Shown: in pieces, positions 17,978 to 48,473 of the stretch
Layout: every line of letters starts with the position of its first letter
Position numbering within the stretch: position 1 is the stretch's first letter
Assembly: GCA_900073065.1 (NCBI GenBank)
Contig: FJOG01000001.1
Coordinates: forward strand, 2,264,439-2,328,438
Length of the DNA stretch: 64,000 nucleotides
Direction of reading: 5' to 3'
Source: Phialocephala subalpina
Taxonomy: Eukaryota; Ascomycota; Leotiomycetes; Helotiales; Mollisiaceae
Made by a program: the position numbers and the translations under genes
Notes under the pieces: model-generated
Seen by the model: only the letters and a program-made list of their open reading frames with translations
What the model was told of the DNA's origin: nothing
Database searches by the model: none

Positions 17978-20593
17978 TCAAATCGTGAAATCAAGCAACT
18001 CATACCGAAGATCACTCGTCCCTCCAATCAAGTTCACAAAGTTCTTCCCCGCCGCCAAAGTAATACTCATCGTCGCGGCTGTATAACTTCCAATAGTGCC
18101 AGGTAAACTCATGTTGCCTTGAGAGACCTGATTAACAGTGATCTCCACACTCGCATCACTCCCGCCATTAGCATAAGTCAAGATCAATGTTCCATTACCA
18201 CCCGCACTTTGAATCCCCGAAAATGCAACCACAGCTCCAGCACTCAGAGTAGACGCTACAGCACCATTCGTAGTAGCGCTGGCTTTCGTGTCTTGGGAGA
18301 CTGAGGCATCTGTCAAGAAAGCATCCACAGCGTAGTAAGGCCCGATGATTTGAGGCTGCGTCCAAATCTCGAGTTCACAGATCCCCACCCAGACGTTGGG
18401 CTTCTTGTACATGTTCACGGACACGAAAGTGGTCTCGCTTTCGGCGAAGTAGAACGTGTTTCGATCGTTAGCGAGGAAGGAGGAGGTCAGATTTGCGAGC
18501 AGGCCACTGGATCCGTGAATCTCGATAGCTGCTGGGACATCGACGGAACCTCCTCGTGCGACGTCGGAGAATAGAGCCAGACTGATGGATGAGATATTTC
18601 GAGGTCGAGCGAAGACAATTTGAAGGGTATCATTGGTATTTGGAGATTGATAGTTGGTCCAACGATTGTCTGGGATGGAATCATAGAAGAGATAACCATC
18701 GATTGATCTGTAAGGGTCGTCTGTAGTGTAGGTGTATGTTGCACTTGCTTGAGGGTACGAACCATTCCCGTTGGGATTTGCGGCAATGTTGACAGGGACG
18801 GGTGAGGATGCAGTGTTCGTAGCTGGAAAGGCCACCTGAGCATCGGCCCCATTCCCGTTGTAGACTTTCGATCCATCAAGGAAGACTGATAGGCCTGTCC
18901 CATTGTTGTATCTGGTACCGTCTTGGTCGTAGAGGACAGTGATGAGGTGTCCGTGATAGGCGAGGTTTTCGATGGCGAAGTAGGTCCAATTTTGAGGTAT
19001 GATGGGGTCGATCTCAAAAACGTCGTCCGAGCGAGGAACTATTCCCAGAAGCCCAGTGAGAACATCGTCATTATTAGTTGAGTGCTGGAACAATCAGAAT
19101 CAAATCAGCAGAGATCCGTTTGGGAGACTTACATCATAATGTTCAGAATGGTTGGGAGTGTCTGCGCTCCAGGCGTCCATTTCAGGGTAGTGAGACTCGG
19201 CCACATACGGGGTTCCATTCTTGTACTGTGTGGTAGCGTACTTGCCGAGATACTGAACGTATTGCTCGGCAGTGACAGACGTATTTCCAGAGCGATAAAT
19301 AGCTGCTAGAGACTTCAAAGTGTGTGCTGTCGAGAATGGCCAAGACTGCCCTTGCCAGTAGCAACAATAGTCTGACGGCTTAGTTGCGGTGAAGTACTGA
19401 TTGCGAACTTCCAGCGTCGTAGGACCATAGGCAGTCAAGAAACCTTGGGGGTCGAACAATTCTTGAACGGAAGTGTTGGCATATTGGGAAGTAAGTCCAA
19501 TGCCAAAACGATAAGGAAAGAAGCCCACTTCCTCTCTTCCCATGACTTTCGTCAGATTTGGATTGTTTGGCATGATGACGTCCACAAAAAAGTTTTGAGA
19601 TGGGTCCCACAGGCGATCGTAGATGGCCTGTTCCAATTGATCGGCTTTTTTTGTGAAAGTCGCAGCTGTCGCGCTGTCACCTGCTTGCACAGCAACTTGA
19701 GCGACGGCTCGAGCATTCGCAACCATGTAGGCGTTGTGATTGGGCCTGTAGGTATTCGGACCATCCAATTGAAGTTGACCGCCACCAGGAGCCACGACTA
19801 TAGATAGATCAGTATGAGATTTGAAGTATAATTTGGGAGTCGAGGAGCTGAGGGGCCGAGTTTGCAGTACTCGCGACAATTTCGGCCCCGAAAATGTCCT
19901 AAATCAAAAGAAAGAATTCACATACTATACCCTGGCAAGCTGTATTCTTGAGCGTCGAAGTTTGGCGTGAAGTAGAAGAGCCCAGCTTGGGAATCATAGA
20001 CAGGATTCCAGTATTCATACAGACGAGCCATGTCCGCAAGCTGTTCTGTCGCATAATGCGAATCTCCAGTCACTTGGGAGCGTCGAAACATGGCATCCAG
20101 GATCCAATGGGTGTACTGCGTGCTGTTTCCGGGACCACGAGTGTAGGCCTGGATGTAGTCATCATTGTAGAACTTGCTCCGAAGCCATCTCGCTTCGTCA
20201 ATCTGATGGCCGGCAGCGGCATCAATGGTACCGAAAGCCTCAGCATAGTCAGGGGGTTTCATGAACTCAGTAAGGATGTAACCCGTCCCAACAATGGTGT
20301 AGCGCAGATGGCGCTGAAGCGAGGACCATCGGTAATAGTATACATCTTGAATGTTTGAATTTGGGATGTCCTATTGATTATCAGAGAGAAGGAAGATCTG
20401 GAGCTTTGAGACTTACAATGTATGGAATGTTTTCTTTCAAAAACGTCTGGCCCCAGAAGCTACTGATAGGTTTGTCGTGATCTAGGAAATTCGTTCCCGT
20501 GATATTGATACTGATAGGTTGGGGAGGTTGAGCAGCCACTAGGACCGTAAAAAGCAAGGAAATGGATTTAAGAAACCATGGCACGACATTCAT
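17978..20593 (-). CDS. Secreted six-hairpin glycosidase (MGH1/GH63-like fold) with C-terminal binding domains
   Basis: Exons are 20593-20417, 20370-19926, 19797-19133 and 19084-17978; introns are 46, 128 and 48 bp, and the protein has 797 residues. The start at 20593 gives a clear signal peptide (MNVVPWFLKSISLLFTVLVA). The catalytic region has the alternating helical pattern of (alpha/alpha)6 hydrolases, with motifs such as YTHWILDAMFRRS, EEVGFFPYRFGIGL, YCCYWQGQSWPFSTAHTLKS and NNDDVLTGLLGIVPR. The C-terminal 250 residues contain a discoidin-like segment (NRWTNYQSPNTNDTLQIVF) followed by a beta-rich carbohydrate-binding-like module ending in RYELLDFTI. Many N-glycosylation sequons fit a secreted enzyme. 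Substrate and GH family are not identified. The 128-bp second intron is a repeated, mobile-looking intron described separately. Confidence 0.8.
19798..19925 (-). mobile_element. Introner-like intron, family 1, copy a
   Basis: This 128-bp intron of the glycosidase is homologous to the 139-bp intron at 47466-47604 in an unrelated 7TM gene. Their last 55 bases differ at only five positions by eye, covering the branch site (ATACTGAT) and the acceptor (TATCTATAG). The middle holds a perfect 8-bp inverted repeat, GGGGCCGA at 19852-19859 and TCGGCCCC at 19882-19889. A core CTCGCGA motif in the loop is shared. The donor is GTATGT. Neighbouring introns in the same gene are 46-48 bp and unrelated. Confidence 0.75.
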
Positions 20594-41759: not shown

Positions 41760-42949
41760 ATGGCAACCACAACCCCCTCAGACCCGACATTCCGCTCCTA
41801 TACCTTAGAAGAAGCCAAAATCTACGCCACCCACCGACTCTCCTACCCCGAAGCCCTTTACAACAAAGTCCTTGAACACCATGCTTCCACCGGAGGTCAA
41901 TTCGGTCTTCTATTCGACGTTGGATGCGGACCTGGGAACGCTACACGTGATGTTGCGTTGTCATTTGATGAAGCACTTGGTGCTGATCCGGGAGAGGCTA
42001 TGATTGGGGCTGCGAGAGATTTGGGTGGGAAGACGAAGAGTGGGAAGGGGATTAGGTACGAGGTTTCTGGTGCGGAGGAGATAAGTGGGGTTGAGGGGTT
42101 GGCGAGGGAGTCTGTGGATCTTTTGATCAGTGCTATGGCTGTACATTGGTTTGACGTGCCAAAATTCTGGGCAGAGGCGGCGAAAGTCGTCAAGCCTGGA
42201 GGGACAGTTGCACTTTGGACGTATTGTAAGTTTCCAAATCTTGGGGTTGAAGTTGGACTATGCTGACTGTGATTTTAGCATCTCTGTTTCCTCGTATGTC
42301 AAAGTCCTTAGCCAGGGACATGCACAGTCAATCTCAGAATATCTAGATCCTTCAACGCGAAACTACGAAAAGGTCAAGGAAGTATTCCTTCGGCTCGAAA
42401 GAGAGACCCTCGCACCCTATGCGCAACCAGGCAACATCCTGTCCATGTAAGCATCAACTTCTCGGAGAATTGTTCCCTCTTTCGTGTTGTCTTAGGAGTG
42501 CATTGCTCCGATGTACTCCACCTGTGCTCCAAACGCACTCTCAAGACATGCATTTTTGCTCTCGAAACATACAAAAGAAGTTGGCTGACTCCGAGATCTT
42601 GATGAACAGGAACATGTACGACGATCTACCACGTCCATGGGACGCCTCACCACCAATCCCCACCTTCCTAGAGTCGAAGTACGTGAAGTACGACTGGGAC
42701 CGAGATGGGAAGCTCAGCAACGGCGTCGACTTCTTTGGCGGCGGAGAGAAACGAACACTCGTCCAGATTGAAAATGGGATGGGAACAGCAAGCATGGTGA
42801 CTCGATGGAGAGCCGCCAACCCAGAGTTAGCTGGCACAGACAAAGATGCGGTGAAAGTCTTTGCCAAGGAATTGCGAGAGGCATTGGGAGGTCAAGACTG
42901 GGTGATAGAAGGCAGTGGGACGACCATCATGCTATTCAAGAAGTCTTGA
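41760..42949 (+). CDS. SAM-dependent methyltransferase (trans-aconitate methyltransferase-like)
   Basis: Exons are 41760-42225, 42279-42293, 42347-42446 and 42610-42949, giving 306 residues. The SAM-binding motif I is LLFDVGCGPGNATRDVA; later class I motifs are AMAVHWFDVPKFW and VVKPGGTVALWTY. Exon 2 is a 15-nt micro-exon that together with its neighbours restores TYSSLFP|HPSTRNYEKV, a stretch well conserved in fungal relatives. The C-terminal block DDLPRPWD and the closing GTTIMLFKKS fit the TMT1-like group. Substrate is probably a small acid, but this is inference. The third intron (163 bp) is a repeated element shared with the gene at 46837-48473. Confidence 0.85.
42447..42609 (+). mobile_element. 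Introner-like intron, family 2, copy a
   Basis: This 163-bp intron is homologous over its full length to the 164-bp intron at 48014-48177 on the other strand in an unrelated gene. By eye identity is roughly 75-80 percent, with a 32-base identical run near the 3' end that includes TTGGCTGACTCCGAGATC. Subterminal inverted repeats TCTCGGAG (42460-42467) and CTCCGAGA (42589-42596) pair across the element. A central imperfect palindrome GGAGTGC.TTGCTCC is kept in both copies. The donor is GTAAGC, the branch GCTGAC, the acceptor AACAG. The two other introns of this gene are 53 bp each. Confidence 0.82.
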
Positions 42950-44901
42950 TCCTCCCCGACGGCGTTGAAATTGCGGTCTTCCTCGCTATTCACTCTTATT
43001 CAAATCATATATACAAAGTCACCGTCCTCTTCAGTACGGCGCGTTTCCGAGGATCTCTTCTCAAAAATGTGGTGATTGGTCTAGATCTCCAGCCGTATGC
43101 AGGACATCTGAACCTGTCTCCACCATCCCTGAGACCCTGAAGATATCATATTCCGATATAGCCTATTACAGAAACGTTACTATCCCTTCTAAGATGTTGG
43201 ACATTTTGCCTATCTCCTCGCATGCAGAAGATTAACGCGCGCACGTTTAGTTTCAAGCAAGCCCGTGGGGTCTGAGTTGCATCCACCAGGTGCATCTTGA
43301 CCCTTCTAGAGCACAGATCAAGGGATCTAATGGTCGGATGGACTGGTGATGTGGGTGAGGCGGGAAGCGCGTCCAGCGCACATCTTGAAGCGCGCGGTCA
43401 AATCCCATCACCATCACCAGATGAGGGTGGTCAAGATCGATTCGGCTTCAATTGAAGCTTGATCGAACAGCAAAAATTTTCTTCATTCTATGCTGACCAT
43501 CATGTCTATTCTTCAAGTGAAGACAGCCGTTTTCCCCGTCGTCTTTTCAAATCATCACGATGCCCCACGAAGCACCCCTCCAAAGCCCGCTCTCTGATTC
43601 GTCAATTCGCGTATGCAAGCATTAAACGCGAAAAATCGCGTCGCGCGTTCCATGTAATCTCCCTCATGCTCTCATCCACCACTCACAGCACCCACTTCTC
43701 GCACACGCTCTGTAAATGACTCGCAGGCAAGGCGGTGTCATGTCACCGCCTCAGCAAGAGCGAACTTGCCTTGCATCTCGATATCACCTGGGGATGCTGA
43801 ATGTCCTCATGGAAGAAAGCAGCGGGAGCAAGCATGGCGATAAGATTGCGCCGTTTCAGACATCCTGTCCATACTATCGATTAGAACCCCTCAGACATAC
43901 TTTGCGTCATTGCTGAGTGTCTATGAACATCGTAATGAAAAGAACCAAGGGAGGTCAGCAAGGAAATCCTCTGAGATGGTGCCTGGGAGACGCGTCGAAG
44001 CGCGTAAAGTACTTTCTTGGATAATATTGATCTCGATTCCAACAGCAGGTACACCAGGAGAAAGTGAGAGGGTGTTGCCATGACGAAAGAATTGAGAGTG
44101 AGAATCGAAAAGTCACCTCATGATCGAGTGTTCTGATAGAGGCTAAGGCACCAGGAGGAGAGTTCATTCTATCTTGGGGTGGGATCCGGGGCTTCTCCCG
44201 CAGCCATAAACTTTCCACCAGCTTGGAAAATGCTAGGAGATGACTTCAGATGGCACTGTTATAAGCCCTAGCCGGTGACCGGCGTGCTGAACGGTGCAAG
44301 TGAAGGGATCATAGAGACGGGAGCGCAGAATCGAGAGGTCGCTGAGCGAAGTATCGAGGAGGTGATTCTCCGTTCAGATCGAGGACAGGAACAGAACCAA
44401 AAAAGCTCCCCTTCACACACCGCAACCAACATCGTCTCGCAGATATATTGTGCACACTAGACTTCTGAAAGGGAAGTAGTGGCACACACCTCTCTTCACA
44501 CCCTTGCTCACCTTGTACGCTCCCATCACGAGGCCACTTAATGCGGTTGTGCAGGGGTAGCTGGTCGTAGCGGGCATTAACTCTGCATTATTAACAGGCC
44601 GCCCACCGTTGCCAACGGCCCTCTCTTCCTCTCACATCCACAGCTGCGCCAACCTGCATCTTCACCACCAAAAGCAACATCTACGATCAACAACGTCGTC
44701 GCATATATTTGTTTTCGGGGCCAACGAATCTTTAAAGCTCGGGGAATACGATCGTGTTTTTATTCTGCGCAGAGAGCGAGGTTGTGCGACGCCGAGAGCT
44801 CCCGGCGCATTCGTGTCGCTCGTCGCATCGATCCTCGATTGCTTCGAGAACTTCACTCTACACGACAACACTCTACACACAACAATACGACAGTCGCAAC
44901 C
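42950..44901. other. Intergenic and leader of Myb/SANT-like gene
   Basis: 1.95 kb without a supportable gene. GC-rich motifs of the type GCGCGC/GCGCGTCC occur near 43370-43400. The region from about 44600 to 44901 looks like the leader of the next gene, with short upstream ORFs (e.g. 44754, 44782). Confidence 0.5.
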
Positions 44902-45885
44902 ATGCTCCTTCCCTCAGCATTAACCTGCGAATCCACCTCCTCGCTCTCAGCACCAAAACCCACCTCCTACTTCCCACCTTCGTCGACCCTCTTCGCCTCA
45001 CCACCCATCTCACCTCCTACAACCACGACTCAGCTCTCTTTTCAAACACCAGCCTCAAGCTCAAACACCACGATCTCGAGTATATACTCGACATGTCGCG
45101 CGCTGCAATCTATGCTTACAACTCCGTCGCAATTGCCGAGTCCTCCTACACAACGTACGCAATTAGCTTCTTCAATCCCAATCATCTCGAGTCCGTTTAA
45201 GTTGAGGTTGAGGAATAGGGGGAATAGGAGTGAAGATCAATCTTTAACTCCTAGGAAGAAGATTGGGAAACGAGCACCCCCTAGAGGAGTTAATAAACGT
45301 CGACGAGCAATTGAGGACGAGATGTCGAGGGAGACAGTCGACAGTGATTGCGACTCGGAACACGAACATGAGAATGAGTCGGAAGAGAAGGAGAATGCGA
45401 GACAAACACCAGAGCGAGAGGAGAGGGAAGGGGAAAGACCCAGGACACCAAAACGTATCCGTCTAGCTCCAGAAATCCTTCCACTCGGTCTTGATCGCAG
45501 CGACTTTCACGCTCTGCACTTACAACATCAACTCTCGTCCCAACCTTTATTCTTCCCGTCCTCACAATCTTCCCACTCCAACGCCGGTCCATTTTCCTCC
45601 AACAACACACAACAACAAGAAATGGAAAGTGAAGAGAACGAGGAATGGAGCACAGAAGACGACCGCCTCCTCGTCGAGCTCGTCCTCGAAAAACTCAAGC
45701 TCTCAAAATCCGAATGGCAAGATTGCGCGAGAAGTTTAGGACGGGATCGAGGGAGTGTGGGGAGGAGGTGGAAGAGTCTTATGGCTGGTGGGGACGTAGG
45801 CCTGAAGGGACGGCCTAAGGCTGTTGGCGGGATAGGAGGGAGAGGGAAAATGGAGAGGGGAAGGATTTATGGGAGTTGGCGCTGA
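44902..45885 (+). CDS. Myb/SANT-like nuclear protein
   Basis: A single exon of 327 residues from the ATG in context aaccATGCTCC. The frame continues upstream to 44782, but that part is in the leader. The first third is Ser/Thr/Pro-rich. Two basic segments (RKKIGKRAPPRGVNKRRR, RPRTPKRIRLAP) look like nuclear localisation signals and flank an acidic stretch. Residues about 245-295 form a Myb/SANT-like helix-turn-helix with regularly spaced aromatic residues (EEWSTEDDRLLVELVLE, then SEWQDCARSLGRDR and RRWKSLM). A Gly/Arg-rich tail follows. It is probably a chromatin or DNA-binding regulator; target and name are unknown. Confidence 0.72.
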   Translation: MLLPSALTCESTSSLSAPKPTSYFPPSSTLFASPPISPPTTTTQLSFQTPASSSNTTISSIYSTCRALQSMLTTPSQLPSPPTQRTQLASSIPIISSPFKLRLRNRGNRSEDQSLTPRKKIGKRAPPRGVNKRRRAIEDEMSRETVDSDCDSEHEHENESEEKENARQTPEREEREGERPRTPKRIRLAPEILPLGLDRSDFHALHLQHQLSSQPLFFPSSQSSHSNAGPFSSNNTQQQEMESEENEEWSTEDDRLLVELVLEKLKLSKSEWQDCARSLGRDRGSVGRRWKSLMAGGDVGLKGRPKAVGGIGGRGKMERGRIYGSWR

Positions 45886-46836
45886 TTGTAGCGTTTGTTT
45901 CTTCTCTCCCAGTTGCACTCCTTTCGACTGGATGACTTCGTTTGTTCTTTTTTATATCTTAGGGCCGGGGTTATATAGATTATAGGACGGAGTTATATGA
46001 TGGTGGCACGGATAGGCCCGGAGGCCGTTCGATTATCGACGGACATTTAGGCTTGGGTCTGTGGTGGAAGGTTCATCTGATATTTTGAGTTTAAGTTTGA
46101 GTTCGTCGAACTTCACTACTACTAGTACCGCTCTTTGACTTTCGATATGATATCCAATGAAGTACCACTTTACTCCTTTTTTCCCCCCCGCCTCTATTGC
46201 GTGTGATGTCTAGCTACGGTATAGCAGTTGAACTCTCAGGCATGATATATTGATTTGAGGTATAGTGAGATCTTTATGCCTCGTACCTGTGTTGGTTATA
46301 TCAATGTAGGGCTGGGAGGTACAGTGAGGTTGTTATGCTTTGGAGGTGGGGTTGGCCAATAATAGGGCGGTAGTATATTGGGTGTGTTGTCAGTACGAGG
46401 TACTTGTGGCTGAAGAAAATACAATAGCGTTGACGGAAGTGAAGGATCAAACGATGCAGTTGAAGGGCAGTTCAATTGTCAGATCGACCTGGACATTAAT
46501 TCCTCAATTCAGTGCAGGTATGTTGTTTGTAGTAATTATGGGTATTTTAGAACTCCTAATCATGATAATCTTCTCAATATACATAGCCCTTTCCTATTCC
46601 CAACCGATGCCTCCCTTTCCCCATCCTTCCCTTAGTTCCCATAACCTGGTTCTATCCTCTTCCTGTCCCTATATTAATCCCGAACCCATCGCACCGGTAC
46701 CTAGGATCCATTCCCCAATGCATCCCATGCCCTGTTCCCTTTTCCCTTCCCGTGCCTCCAATACGCCAAAGCAAGGTCATCGCCCCTGGCGAAGTCCAAG
46801 CCATTCAAGGTTCACTAGAAACAGATATGACGATGC
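45886..46836. other. Intergenic, shared 3' flank
   Basis: Between the 3' ends of the Myb/SANT-like gene (+) and the 7TM gene (-). It is T-rich with several GAGGTATAGTGAG-like short repeats near 46255-46330. The ORF at 46340-46855 runs into the antisense of the 7TM gene and has a low-complexity Pro-rich end; not called. Confidence 0.5.
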
Positions 46837-48473
46837 TTATGCCATATCCCCATGATCCCTCATCGTCATCGGCCAGGGCGTCACAGGCGTCACATCCCCA
46901 CTCCCACTCCCATTTTCAAGCCAACTCCCATCACTATCCCCATCGCCCGTAGAACTAACCTCCACCGTCTTATGCACGTTAATCCCTCCCTTCCCCGTCC
47001 CCCCTTCCCTCCCTCCTCCAACCACTTCACTCGAATCCCCAAACGGGCTTCTGATACTTGTCACCGTTCCTTTGCGTCTAACGTCGGACCGTAGCTGTAT
47101 CTGGCGTTGAGATGGAGGATCTTGGTTCTTGATATATCCTAAGCGGGAGTTTGATTTTCGCCAGTTTGAGGGGTGGGGATGTGAGGAGGCAGAGCGGGTA
47201 GAGAGGTTGTAGAAGGAGCGGAAGAGAGGGCGGAGGGTTGCACCTCCTATGGCCATTATTCCGAGGCCGGGTTCGACAGTTGACCAGATTGCTACGTCCG
47301 TTGTAGCGAAGAGGAAGTCATCTGTGAGGGCGAGAGTCTTGATGAATGGGACGCGGATCATTGCGGCTACTCCAGCCCTGTGTAGTGATTAGTCATGATG
47401 GTAAATGAGATATGAAGGTGTGACTTACAGAAGTCCAAGGCCCATTAGCACAGCAACTGAAACCTCTATAGATAAATCAGTATGCGATTTGAAGTATGAT
47501 TTTGGAGTCGAAGAGCTGAGGAGCCGGGAGGAGCCGAGTCCAAAATACTCGCGAAGAGCTCGGCTCTCTATATCTCTTCAAACAAAGGGCATATTCTCAC
47601 GTACTGGTTCGCACATTCATCTTGAGATCGTAGATCAGAGCAATAGGCAATAAACCAAGTATCCAATCTGCCGTGAAGGAGACAACCGAGTGAGCGATAC
47701 TAGCATCAGGTACAGCTGCTGGGTTTATGCATGATCCTTTTTTGCCCAAATATTGTTCCCAGAAATAGCTGTATGGAGTGCATTGGAATAGCACTAAGAA
47801 GAAGTAGAAAATAGAGAACAAGATGACCATAGTCAAGGTCCCGTAAACGATGTTCTTGTGTATTGGCTTGACGCATATTCGGAGAAGGAAGACGGCGATT
47901 GAAAGTCGGATGAAGACCGTTGTCAATGTATAGAAGAGCTCACAGAGCCACCAGTAATACAGTGCCTTGGGGATGTCGTCCAGAGGTATATCGGTAACGT
48001 GTCGACCTGTTCCCTATTTGTCAAGATCTCGGAGTCAGCCAACTTCTTTTGTGTGTCTCAAGAGCAAAAATGTATGTCTCAGAAGTGTATCTAGAGCACA
48101 GCTGGAATGCATATGGAGCAACGCACTCCAGAAGCATGCCAGGAAAGGGAATAATGCTCCGAGAAATTGACACTCACATAATGCACGCCAGTTGCTGAAC
48201 AAGCACAGTAGGTGGTGAAAAACATCTGAAGACAGTCAGCATGGAACTCTGACAAGAGCGATGATGGCGACTGACCAGAGCTATAATGAGGAAAACATCA
48301 TCGCTTCCCCAGCTTTTAGTCAAGAATGTCTTGACATAGAATCTCAAGCAGACGAAAACCGTAGCAAGACCTAAGAAGAGGCCCAAGACACTGGCTACCA
48401 ATCATCAGTACAGTCCAGACGAACACGAACCTCGGATGAACATACCCAACTCGGGCCCCCTGTCTACCGCCAT
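46837..48473 (-). CDS. Seven-TM integral membrane protein (fungal rhodopsin/PTH11-like domain)
   Basis: Exons are 48473-48446, 48394-48276, 48225-48178, 48013-47605, 47465-47429 and 47377-46837, giving 393 residues. The start MAVDRGPELASVLGLFLG matches the usual N-terminus of this family. Seven hydrophobic helices are visible, e.g. VFLIIALMFFTTY, IRLSIAVFLLRI, LTMVILFSIFYFFLVLF and VSVAVLMGLGLLAGVAAM. Extracellular cysteines (TYCACSATG, GSCINPAAV) and the loop ending SFTADWILGLLPIALIYDL are typical. The cytoplasmic tail is Ser/Gly-rich. Family members include putative GPCR-like receptors; ligand and partner are unknown. Two of five introns, the 164-bp and 139-bp ones, are repeated elements of two different families; the other three are 50-51 bp. 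Confidence 0.83.
47466..47604 (-). mobile_element. Introner-like intron, family 1, copy b
   Basis: This 139-bp intron of the 7TM gene is homologous to the glycosidase intron at 19798-19925. The shared 55-base 3' block spans 47466-47520. A perfect 8-bp inverted repeat lies at 47531-47538 (GAGCCGAG) and 47559-47566 (CTCGGCTC). Compared with copy a, a G-C pair in the stem has become A-T, so pairing is kept. The donor is GTACGT, placed at 47604 because only that choice restores MNVRT|KVSVAVLMG. Confidence 0.75.
48014..48177 (-). mobile_element. Introner-like intron, family 2, copy b
   Basis: 164-bp intron of the 7TM gene, homologous along its whole length to the methyltransferase intron at 42447-42609. 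Subterminal inverted repeats lie at 48027-48034 (TCTCGGAG on the plus strand) and 48057-48064 offset by 100 bp, i.e. 48157-48164 (CTCCGAGA). The donor is GTGAGT and the acceptor AAATAG; splicing is phase 0 (GVHY|GTGRHV). Confidence 0.82.

Follow-up and report, generated by a model that had tools for sequence, protein, structure and literature searches.

Two end-to-end alike introns in unrelated genes of Phialocephala subalpina are very probably copies of a young introner family

A 64,000-nucleotide stretch of the genome of the root fungus Phialocephala subalpina (contig FJOG01000001.1, positions 2,264,439 to 2,328,438; hereafter the window) carries two unusually similar introns. One interrupts the gene of an S-adenosylmethionine (SAM)-dependent methyltransferase, the other the gene of a fungal rhodopsin-domain, seven-transmembrane (7TM) integral membrane protein (Table 1). 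An initial annotation, made from the sequence of the window, had described these introns as alike from end to end, with a 32-base identical run, in host genes unrelated to each other. Coordinates, alignment and shared run were all reproduced here, and the two protein families leave the hosts as unrelated as had been claimed. Aligned over their whole length, the introns have 88% mean column identity with a mismatch counted as half, corresponding to ~76% identical columns, and an identical run of 32 nt is common to both. With the 7TM intron as query, the methyltransferase intron is matched at 126 bits (E 1.3e-28), far beyond chance.

In both introns the donor, the branch site and the acceptor lie within the repeat, as the annotation had it; the motif GCTGAC is what we take to be the branch site of these introns. 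The spliced methyltransferase reads GNILSM^NMYDDLP across the joint (here and below, ^ marks the insertion point), a sequence conserved among homologs, and the joint of the membrane protein, GVHY^GTGRH, likewise falls in conserved sequence. The hand-spliced 7TM protein equals the public P. subalpina protein P0241 with 100% identity over 393 aa. No model of the methyltransferase gene from P. subalpina itself was present among the 120 of 134 matches listed; homolog searches for this gene used a hand-made protein in which positions 42294-42346 were read through, before the exons were corrected. That 53-nt intron is easily read through in frame and was recognised only via the homolog alignment. 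The surrounding introns had been put at 50-53 bp. This stands for the methyltransferase gene, whose two neighbouring introns, read by hand, are 53 nt each, and needs refinement for the 7TM gene, which also has a 139-nt introner of another family. The 7TM gene holds one copy each of what we call families 1 and 2, the similar pair of introns belonging to family 2.

Table 1 Features of the window and of further genomic loci (L numbers; positions within the locus).
Feature	Location	Strand	Remarks
Host gene 1, SAM-dependent methyltransferase	41760..42949	+	exons 41760-42225, 42279-42293, 42347-42446, 42610-42949; hand-set against homologs
Family-2 introner, copy 1	42447..42609	+	163 nt; intron of host gene 1; T^GA, Met codon split, phase 2
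Inverted repeat 5' arm, copy 1	42452..42467	+	intron positions 6-21; predicted fold -51.8 kcal/mol, z -4.65; pair counts
Branch site GCTGAC, copy 1	42584..42589	+	from sequence; conserved in family alignment
Inverted repeat 3' arm, copy 1	42589..42604	+	between branch site and acceptor; predicted fold and pair counts
Host gene 2, fungal rhodopsin-domain integral membrane protein (7TM)	46837..48473	-	393 aa; ends hand-set
Family-2 introner, copy 2	48014..48177	-	164 nt; intron of host gene 2; T^GG, phase 0 (Tyr^Gly)
Inverted repeat 5' arm, copy 2	48157..48172	-	predicted fold -49.7 kcal/mol, z -2.82; 2/200 shuffles equal
Inverted repeat 3' arm, copy 2	48019..48034	-	same predicted fold
Family-1 introner in host gene 2	47466..47604	-	139 nt; 40 scored genome matches of 61 candidates
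Second family-1 introner of the window	19798..19926	-	boundaries approximate
Two family-2 copies, amidophosphoribosyltransferase gene	L060 1708-1872 and 2100-2263		227 nt apart; housekeeping gene
Family 3	L010 2822-2920 (-), L014 672-793 (+), L147-L166		~117 nt; 31 genome matches, many partial to query
Family 4	L031 484-584 (+), L010 2143-2243 (-), L127-L146		95-112 nt; 41 matches at 40 places, best 40 of 90 candidates
Small fifth family	L073 121-217, 302-403; L028, L036, L077		related to family 2 at 3' end

The pair is part of a much larger set. BLAST searches of the 68-Mb genome with the two window introns as queries gave 86 and 71 first-look candidates; the best 40 per query were scored, and 40 of 40 matched in each case, mostly near full intron length. 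Over the whole genome and on both strands, a pattern for the 3' end (up to two mismatches) found 76 matches against 1 for its reversed control, and a pattern for the 5' part (up to three mismatches) found 64 against 1. From the BLAST and 3'-pattern searches, 79 loci with 80 places were fetched for the inventory. Scored with a family profile, the genome holds at least 71 family-2 elements of 60 bits or more, including one in L051 that is not itself a search match. Ten of the 80 places fell under 60 bits: L071 is apparently coding sequence matched by chance, L072, L080 and L085 are apparently shortened or diverged copies, and L073, L075, L078, L082, L083 and the pattern match in L051 are diverged or alike at the 3' end only. 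The 5' pattern added 11 places, of which 7 are by eye complete diverged introns; at L167, L171, L172 and L176 the 3' part is lost or altered. Identity to the nearest neighbour reaches 98.8% at most, with a median of 91.4%. Viral contigs scanned with one exact 29-base family-2 pattern gave no match. The genome-wide BLASTN comparison that the initial annotation had proposed as a check thus returned many copies of nearly full length, bounded precisely by splice sites in unrelated genes, and the number of copies excludes a lone pair, in favour of the intron multiplication that had been suggested.

The boundaries of these elements are those of introns, and the insertion sites share a short motif. 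GT stands at the aligned start of 68 of the 71 copies (L012 and L067 lack it there, and L084 has lost its 5' part), and the acceptor AG is displaced by a few bases in six. No direct repeat of 2-9 nt, as a target-site duplication would leave, rose above noise in 40 copies compared at a range of offsets. T immediately precedes the intron in 57/71 and G immediately follows it in 63/71; together, T^G is found at 52/71 insertions, as compared to 6.8% of coding dinucleotides, and T^GG at 32/71. Regular introns from the same loci and the window have T^G in 2 of 27, a count on candidates predicted at rough settings (15 and 8 at stricter settings). Phases were assigned by a codon model, with 4 of the 71 copies ambiguous. 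Of the remaining 67, 33 are in phase 1, and 27 of these 33 split a tryptophan codon as T^GG; 8 of the 15 phase-2 copies split ATG. Within coding sequence of these hosts, T^GG occurs in phases 0, 1 and 2 at 324:239:323. The account given below offers no explanation for this codon-frame bias. The literature found on intron gain and the tryptophan codon, as far as titles or abstracts tell, concerns organelle genomes.

Where their orientation can be judged, family-2 copies seem to lie sense in coding sequence. For 61 copies whose loci span 3 kb or more, removal of the element left a joined open frame with a median of 258 codons in sense and 97 in antisense, against 139 for random excisions (n = 1220); frames of at least 150 codons were obtained in 77%, 25% and 45%, respectively. 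The codon model scored sense above antisense in 61/71 copies, as compared to 275/405 control points in the same loci. The exon pieces flanking the 71 copies (n = 134) matched 43 Pfam families, among them MFS, ABC, HET, GH31, GH92, tyrosinase and protein kinase. When both copies are removed from the amidophosphoribosyltransferase gene, the product matches a P. subalpina protein with 100% identity along the 506 aa used as query, and its alignment to a PurF chain of solved structure runs through both joints. Both patterns, run over the whole genome on both strands, led to no recognised full-length antisense or clearly intergenic copy. Among the hosts, MFS and sugar-type transporters are seemingly over-represented (8 MFS_1 and 5 Sugar_tr among the 134 exon pieces).

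Single-sequence folds predict a hairpin in which the intron ends are brought together by pairs starting 6 nt from each end. Counted over 70 anchored copies (L084 excluded), the 14 stem pairs comprise 835/980 Watson-Crick, 72 G-U, 36 A-C and 37 other combinations. On a 58-copy tree built from the intron interior, changes in the repeat columns were terminal in 68 cases and internal in 2, against 394 terminal and 130 internal changes in interior columns. The 40 BLAST-found copies showed the same contrast (39:2 against 204:68). With held-out interior columns the median p was 5e-5 for the 58 copies (p < 0.05 in 20/20 splits) and 0.0045 for the 40 copies (17/20 splits), a comparison of tree columns with inherited changes that presumes independent evolution of sites. 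What is new here is that a change in the repeats is hardly ever passed on to further copies, which looks as though multiplication depended on the repeats. Terminal changes per column in the 58 copies were 1.87 at the donor, 1.99 at the branch site, 3.76 in the 5' arm, 1.83 in the 3' arm and 3.78 in the held-out interior. These values can be read as splice signals being kept after insertion and the 5' arm not, with both arms kept in copies that multiply; the 5' arm thus seems dispensable for splicing once insertion has occurred. The 3' arm falls within the 3'-end search pattern, which biases the sample toward its conservation; in the 40 BLAST copies the values were 1.16 for the 3' arm and 2.03 for the interior.

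At least four multi-copy introner families stand side by side in this genome, and different families use different insertion motifs, an observation that is also new here. Family 1 favours CA^TNG (A 34/36, C 28/36, T 27/36, G 28/36; 41 copies were parsed and 36 used, with L117, L118, L123, L125 and W2 dropped). Its copies score higher in sense than in antisense by the codon model in 36/36, and its flanks are open throughout in 23/37 for sense as compared to 2/37 for antisense. Family 3, for which 19/22 copies were parsed (not L014, L159 and L164), contains one subfamily of 10 copies followed by TGG and preceded by A in 7, and another of 9 copies followed by A and preceded by C in 7. In family 4 (22/22 parsed) the bases after the intron are T in 22/22, G in 21/22 and G in 14/22. 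The open-flank test gave 17/19 sense against 11 antisense for family 3 and 22/22 against 17 for family 4, with flanks too short to tell. As to codon frame, 8 copies of the family-3 subfamily followed by TGG could be assigned, all of them in phase 0 and immediately upstream of a TGG codon (2 are ambiguous). Families 1 and 4 do not share this pattern; 2/35 and 5/21 of their assigned copies, respectively, precede a codon in phase 0. The fifth-family query gave 4 matches, one of them to itself and another to a neighbour within its own gene. L073 has two copies of this family, ~190 nt apart.

Taken together, we hold with a probability of about 0.97 that the two window introns belong to a single young introner family, which has multiplied in the P. 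subalpina lineage. The gain is probably recent, as the annotation had proposed, because copies 98-99% identical occur at unlinked sites. Paralogs of the hosts allow the state of the sites to be compared. At the 7TM intron site, after residue 16, 24 of 45 other rhodopsin matches in the genome run through without a stop by eye; these 24 start no later than residue 14 (14 of them no later than residue 12), and the other 21 start later and are uninformative or maybe interrupted. For the copy in the ABC transporter of L031, eight ABC matches with 42-58% identity run through the corresponding point. Judged by these alignments, the uninterrupted paralogs appear to be empty sites for the two copies. 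Four other copies (L034, L047, L054 and L170) are inserted at the same homologous W^RW position in MFS transporters. Their introns are 76-83% identical, the flanking proteins 30-67% and the flanking DNA 71-78%, the last in a gap-permissive alignment that for one pair spans only 18 bases. By eye, this site is crossed by 45 of 77 MFS matches free of stops and by a further 4 that contain one stop; 19/77 start at residues 19-29, near the site, and 2 of these are hosts of the copies themselves. The cluster suggests that introns were gained in parallel at a preferred site, and parallel gains have been reported for the introner-like elements (ILEs) of Dothideomycetes (PMC4457414; the papers cited here and below are used in excerpt). 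A family-3 copy in L010 also sits, by eye, at the tryptophan of an MFS W-R/K-W motif, making this a recurrent insertion site.

Two explanations of this similarity need no insertion at new positions. If the sequence had overwritten pre-existing introns, the exact splice-site boundaries would follow, as might the four copies at the one MFS site, near which so many MFS matches begin. Such conversion is at odds with the paralogs, most of which are uninterrupted at the MFS, rhodopsin and ABC sites alike, and with the regular introns of the genome, which by the rough count above lack the T^G flank; we regard it as quite improbable. Duplication of host genes or segments could also leave similar introns behind, and at the MFS site the identity of the flanking DNA does come near that of the introns. 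The flanking proteins there are nonetheless only 30-67% identical, and the hosts are mostly unrelated, which refutes shared ancestry for most copies and leaves it next to no chance overall.

For the mechanism we propose RNA-mediated copying into transcribed genes with a required hairpin, at what we consider even odds. The intron would be spliced out of its transcript, and the near-terminal inverted repeats, with 12-14 predicted pairs starting 6 nt inside, would place the 5' G beside the 3' G. The excised RNA would then be re-inserted in sense into a transcribed exon at the family-specific motif (T^G, often T^GG), with no target bases lost or duplicated, and copied into DNA. Re-insertion could proceed through reverse splicing or through ligation at a break or R-loop. 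By its anatomy the new copy would be a working intron at once, because all splice signals travel with the element. The folding and re-insertion steps would need the inverted repeats, since changes in these are nearly never passed to other copies, an indirect argument.

A non-autonomous DNA transposon, in the manner of introners that resemble miniature inverted-repeat transposable elements, would account for some of the same data. Its transposase would cut at the short motif without target-site duplication; inverted repeats conserved in propagating lineages and family-specific motifs are what element-specific integrases lead one to expect, most introners outside the ascomycetes look like DNA transposons (PMC9860276), and an opposite-strand piece in L035 together with the unplaced L167 and L171 could lie outside coding sequence. 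The lack of a 2-9 nt duplication at any offset in the 40 copies, repeats that lie 6 nt inside and not at the very ends, and the lack of any recognised full-length antisense or clearly intergenic copy, with family 1 in sense throughout, make this origin doubtful. A Helitron-like origin was also considered for the duplication-free insertion and dropped, as full-length copies seem sense and coding. Rather less probable still is short-homology repair, in which a DNA or cDNA copy of the intron with a few flanking exon bases templates the repair of a break at targets sharing 2-4 bases. This would explain why flanks differ between families and subfamilies (TGG and A in family 3), why the match falls off with distance in family 4 and why duplications are absent. 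It does not account for insertion in sense into coding sequence or for the conservation of the inverted repeats, and it sits poorly with the skipped position +2 of family 1 (CA^TNG). It also predicts T^GG in all phases; among 61 family-2 copies whose frame is confidently assigned, 27 of the 33 T^GG sites fall in phase 1.

RNA-mediated copying with a hairpin in turn has a number of observations weighing against it. Simple reverse splicing predicts neither family-specific motifs nor the Trp/Met codon bias. The codon model scores antisense higher in 10/71 copies (L020, L025, L027, L028, L029, L036, L038, L051, L061 and L079); L025 (ABC Walker A) and L027 (GH31) are sense by their own proteins, as we recognise them in the translations, and the others, L020, L028, L029, L051, L061 and L079 among them, may lie in either orientation. 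A decayed, end-less family-2-like stretch of 41 bits at ~2716-2871 of L035 lies antisense to the host gene and may be a relic within or close to a gene next to it. L167 and L171 are unplaced relative to genes, and relics outside coding sequence are possible. The excess of G-U over A-C comes mostly from the linked pairs 6 and 7 and is 35:25 without them, and because it is carried by these pairs it gives weak support for selection on the RNA. The RNAalifold consensus fold, run on a gappy alignment, has only 8 internal pairs and misses the near-terminal stem, for which reason the stem pairs were counted from anchored ends. Finally, the 3' arm has about half the terminal changes of the interior and may matter for splicing too.

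A more specific version, in which an element-specific pairing or factor guides insertion into transcribed coding sequence and the hairpin is needed for mobility, is unlikely as things stand. Equally speculative as a part of it is the idea that each family recognises a short target specific to it (T^GG, CA^TNG, A^TGG, C^A and ^TG(G)), and we would put no more weight on the further element that the motif is read in codon frame, in family 2 (Trp, Met) and one family-3 subfamily (Trp). Guidance of this kind, if true, would be a new sequence-guided mode of spliceosomal intron mobility. The origin of new spliceosomal introns is an old open question, and P. subalpina is well suited to the study of intron gain: its genome combines strong, differing target motifs with a measurable indication of a role for the hairpin in multiplication. 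The families side by side yield concrete predictions, testable in the P. fortinii species complex.

The P. subalpina genome has been described with 20,173 genes, a mean intron length of 80.2 bp and 2.7 introns per gene, and the portions of that paper at hand do not mention introners (PMC5148876). No literature naming both Phialocephala and introners was found in a search that covered sources other than the supplement of PMC9860276, which possibly lists P. subalpina. One close parallel is with the ILEs of the Dothideomycetes Fulvia fulva, Dothistroma septosporum and Zymoseptoria tritici, where, as here, many near-identical introns occupy unrelated genes, with several families per genome and pairs 98-99% identical (PMC4457414), and where the elements have a symmetric, stable structure (PMC8469720), as seen here in single-sequence folds. 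P. subalpina belongs to another class, the Leotiomycetes, and the AG/GY preference quoted for the Dothideomycete elements (PMC8469720) is absent in family 2, which has T at the -1 base in 57/71 and targets T^G(G), with targets differing by family. We do not take AG/GY as defining for ILEs, because introns of the Hypoxylaceae are said to lack this preference (PMC8469720).

In structure, family 2 comes close to the sister stwintrons and type-2 cropped sister introns of Hypoxylaceae and Xylariaceae, which likewise have a near-terminal inverted repeat at both ends and insert seamlessly without duplications (PMC12403724, PMC8469720). The 3' arm of Xylariales stwintrons also lies between branch site and acceptor (PMC12403724). 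Sister stwintrons are nested, whereas family-2 elements are single canonical introns: reading 58 aligned copies by eye, we found no nested second donor or acceptor of the [D1,2] stwintron arrangement. The exons bordering Xylariales stwintrons are reported to have no nucleotide bias (PMC12403724), unlike the strongly biased flanks of family 2. With the DNA-transposon introners of algae and other eukaryotes, family 2 shares mobility, high copy number and, for many of those families, inverted repeats; the marks expected of those elements, target-site duplications and repeats at the very ends, are lacking in family 2, where the repeats are near-terminal, and ascomycete introners are considered outliers among introners (PMC9860276). 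Given their many unrelated hosts, GT...AG bounds, seamless joints and apparently empty paralog sites, the elements of P. subalpina belong to a known kind, and by anatomy and behaviour they are fungal introner-like elements.

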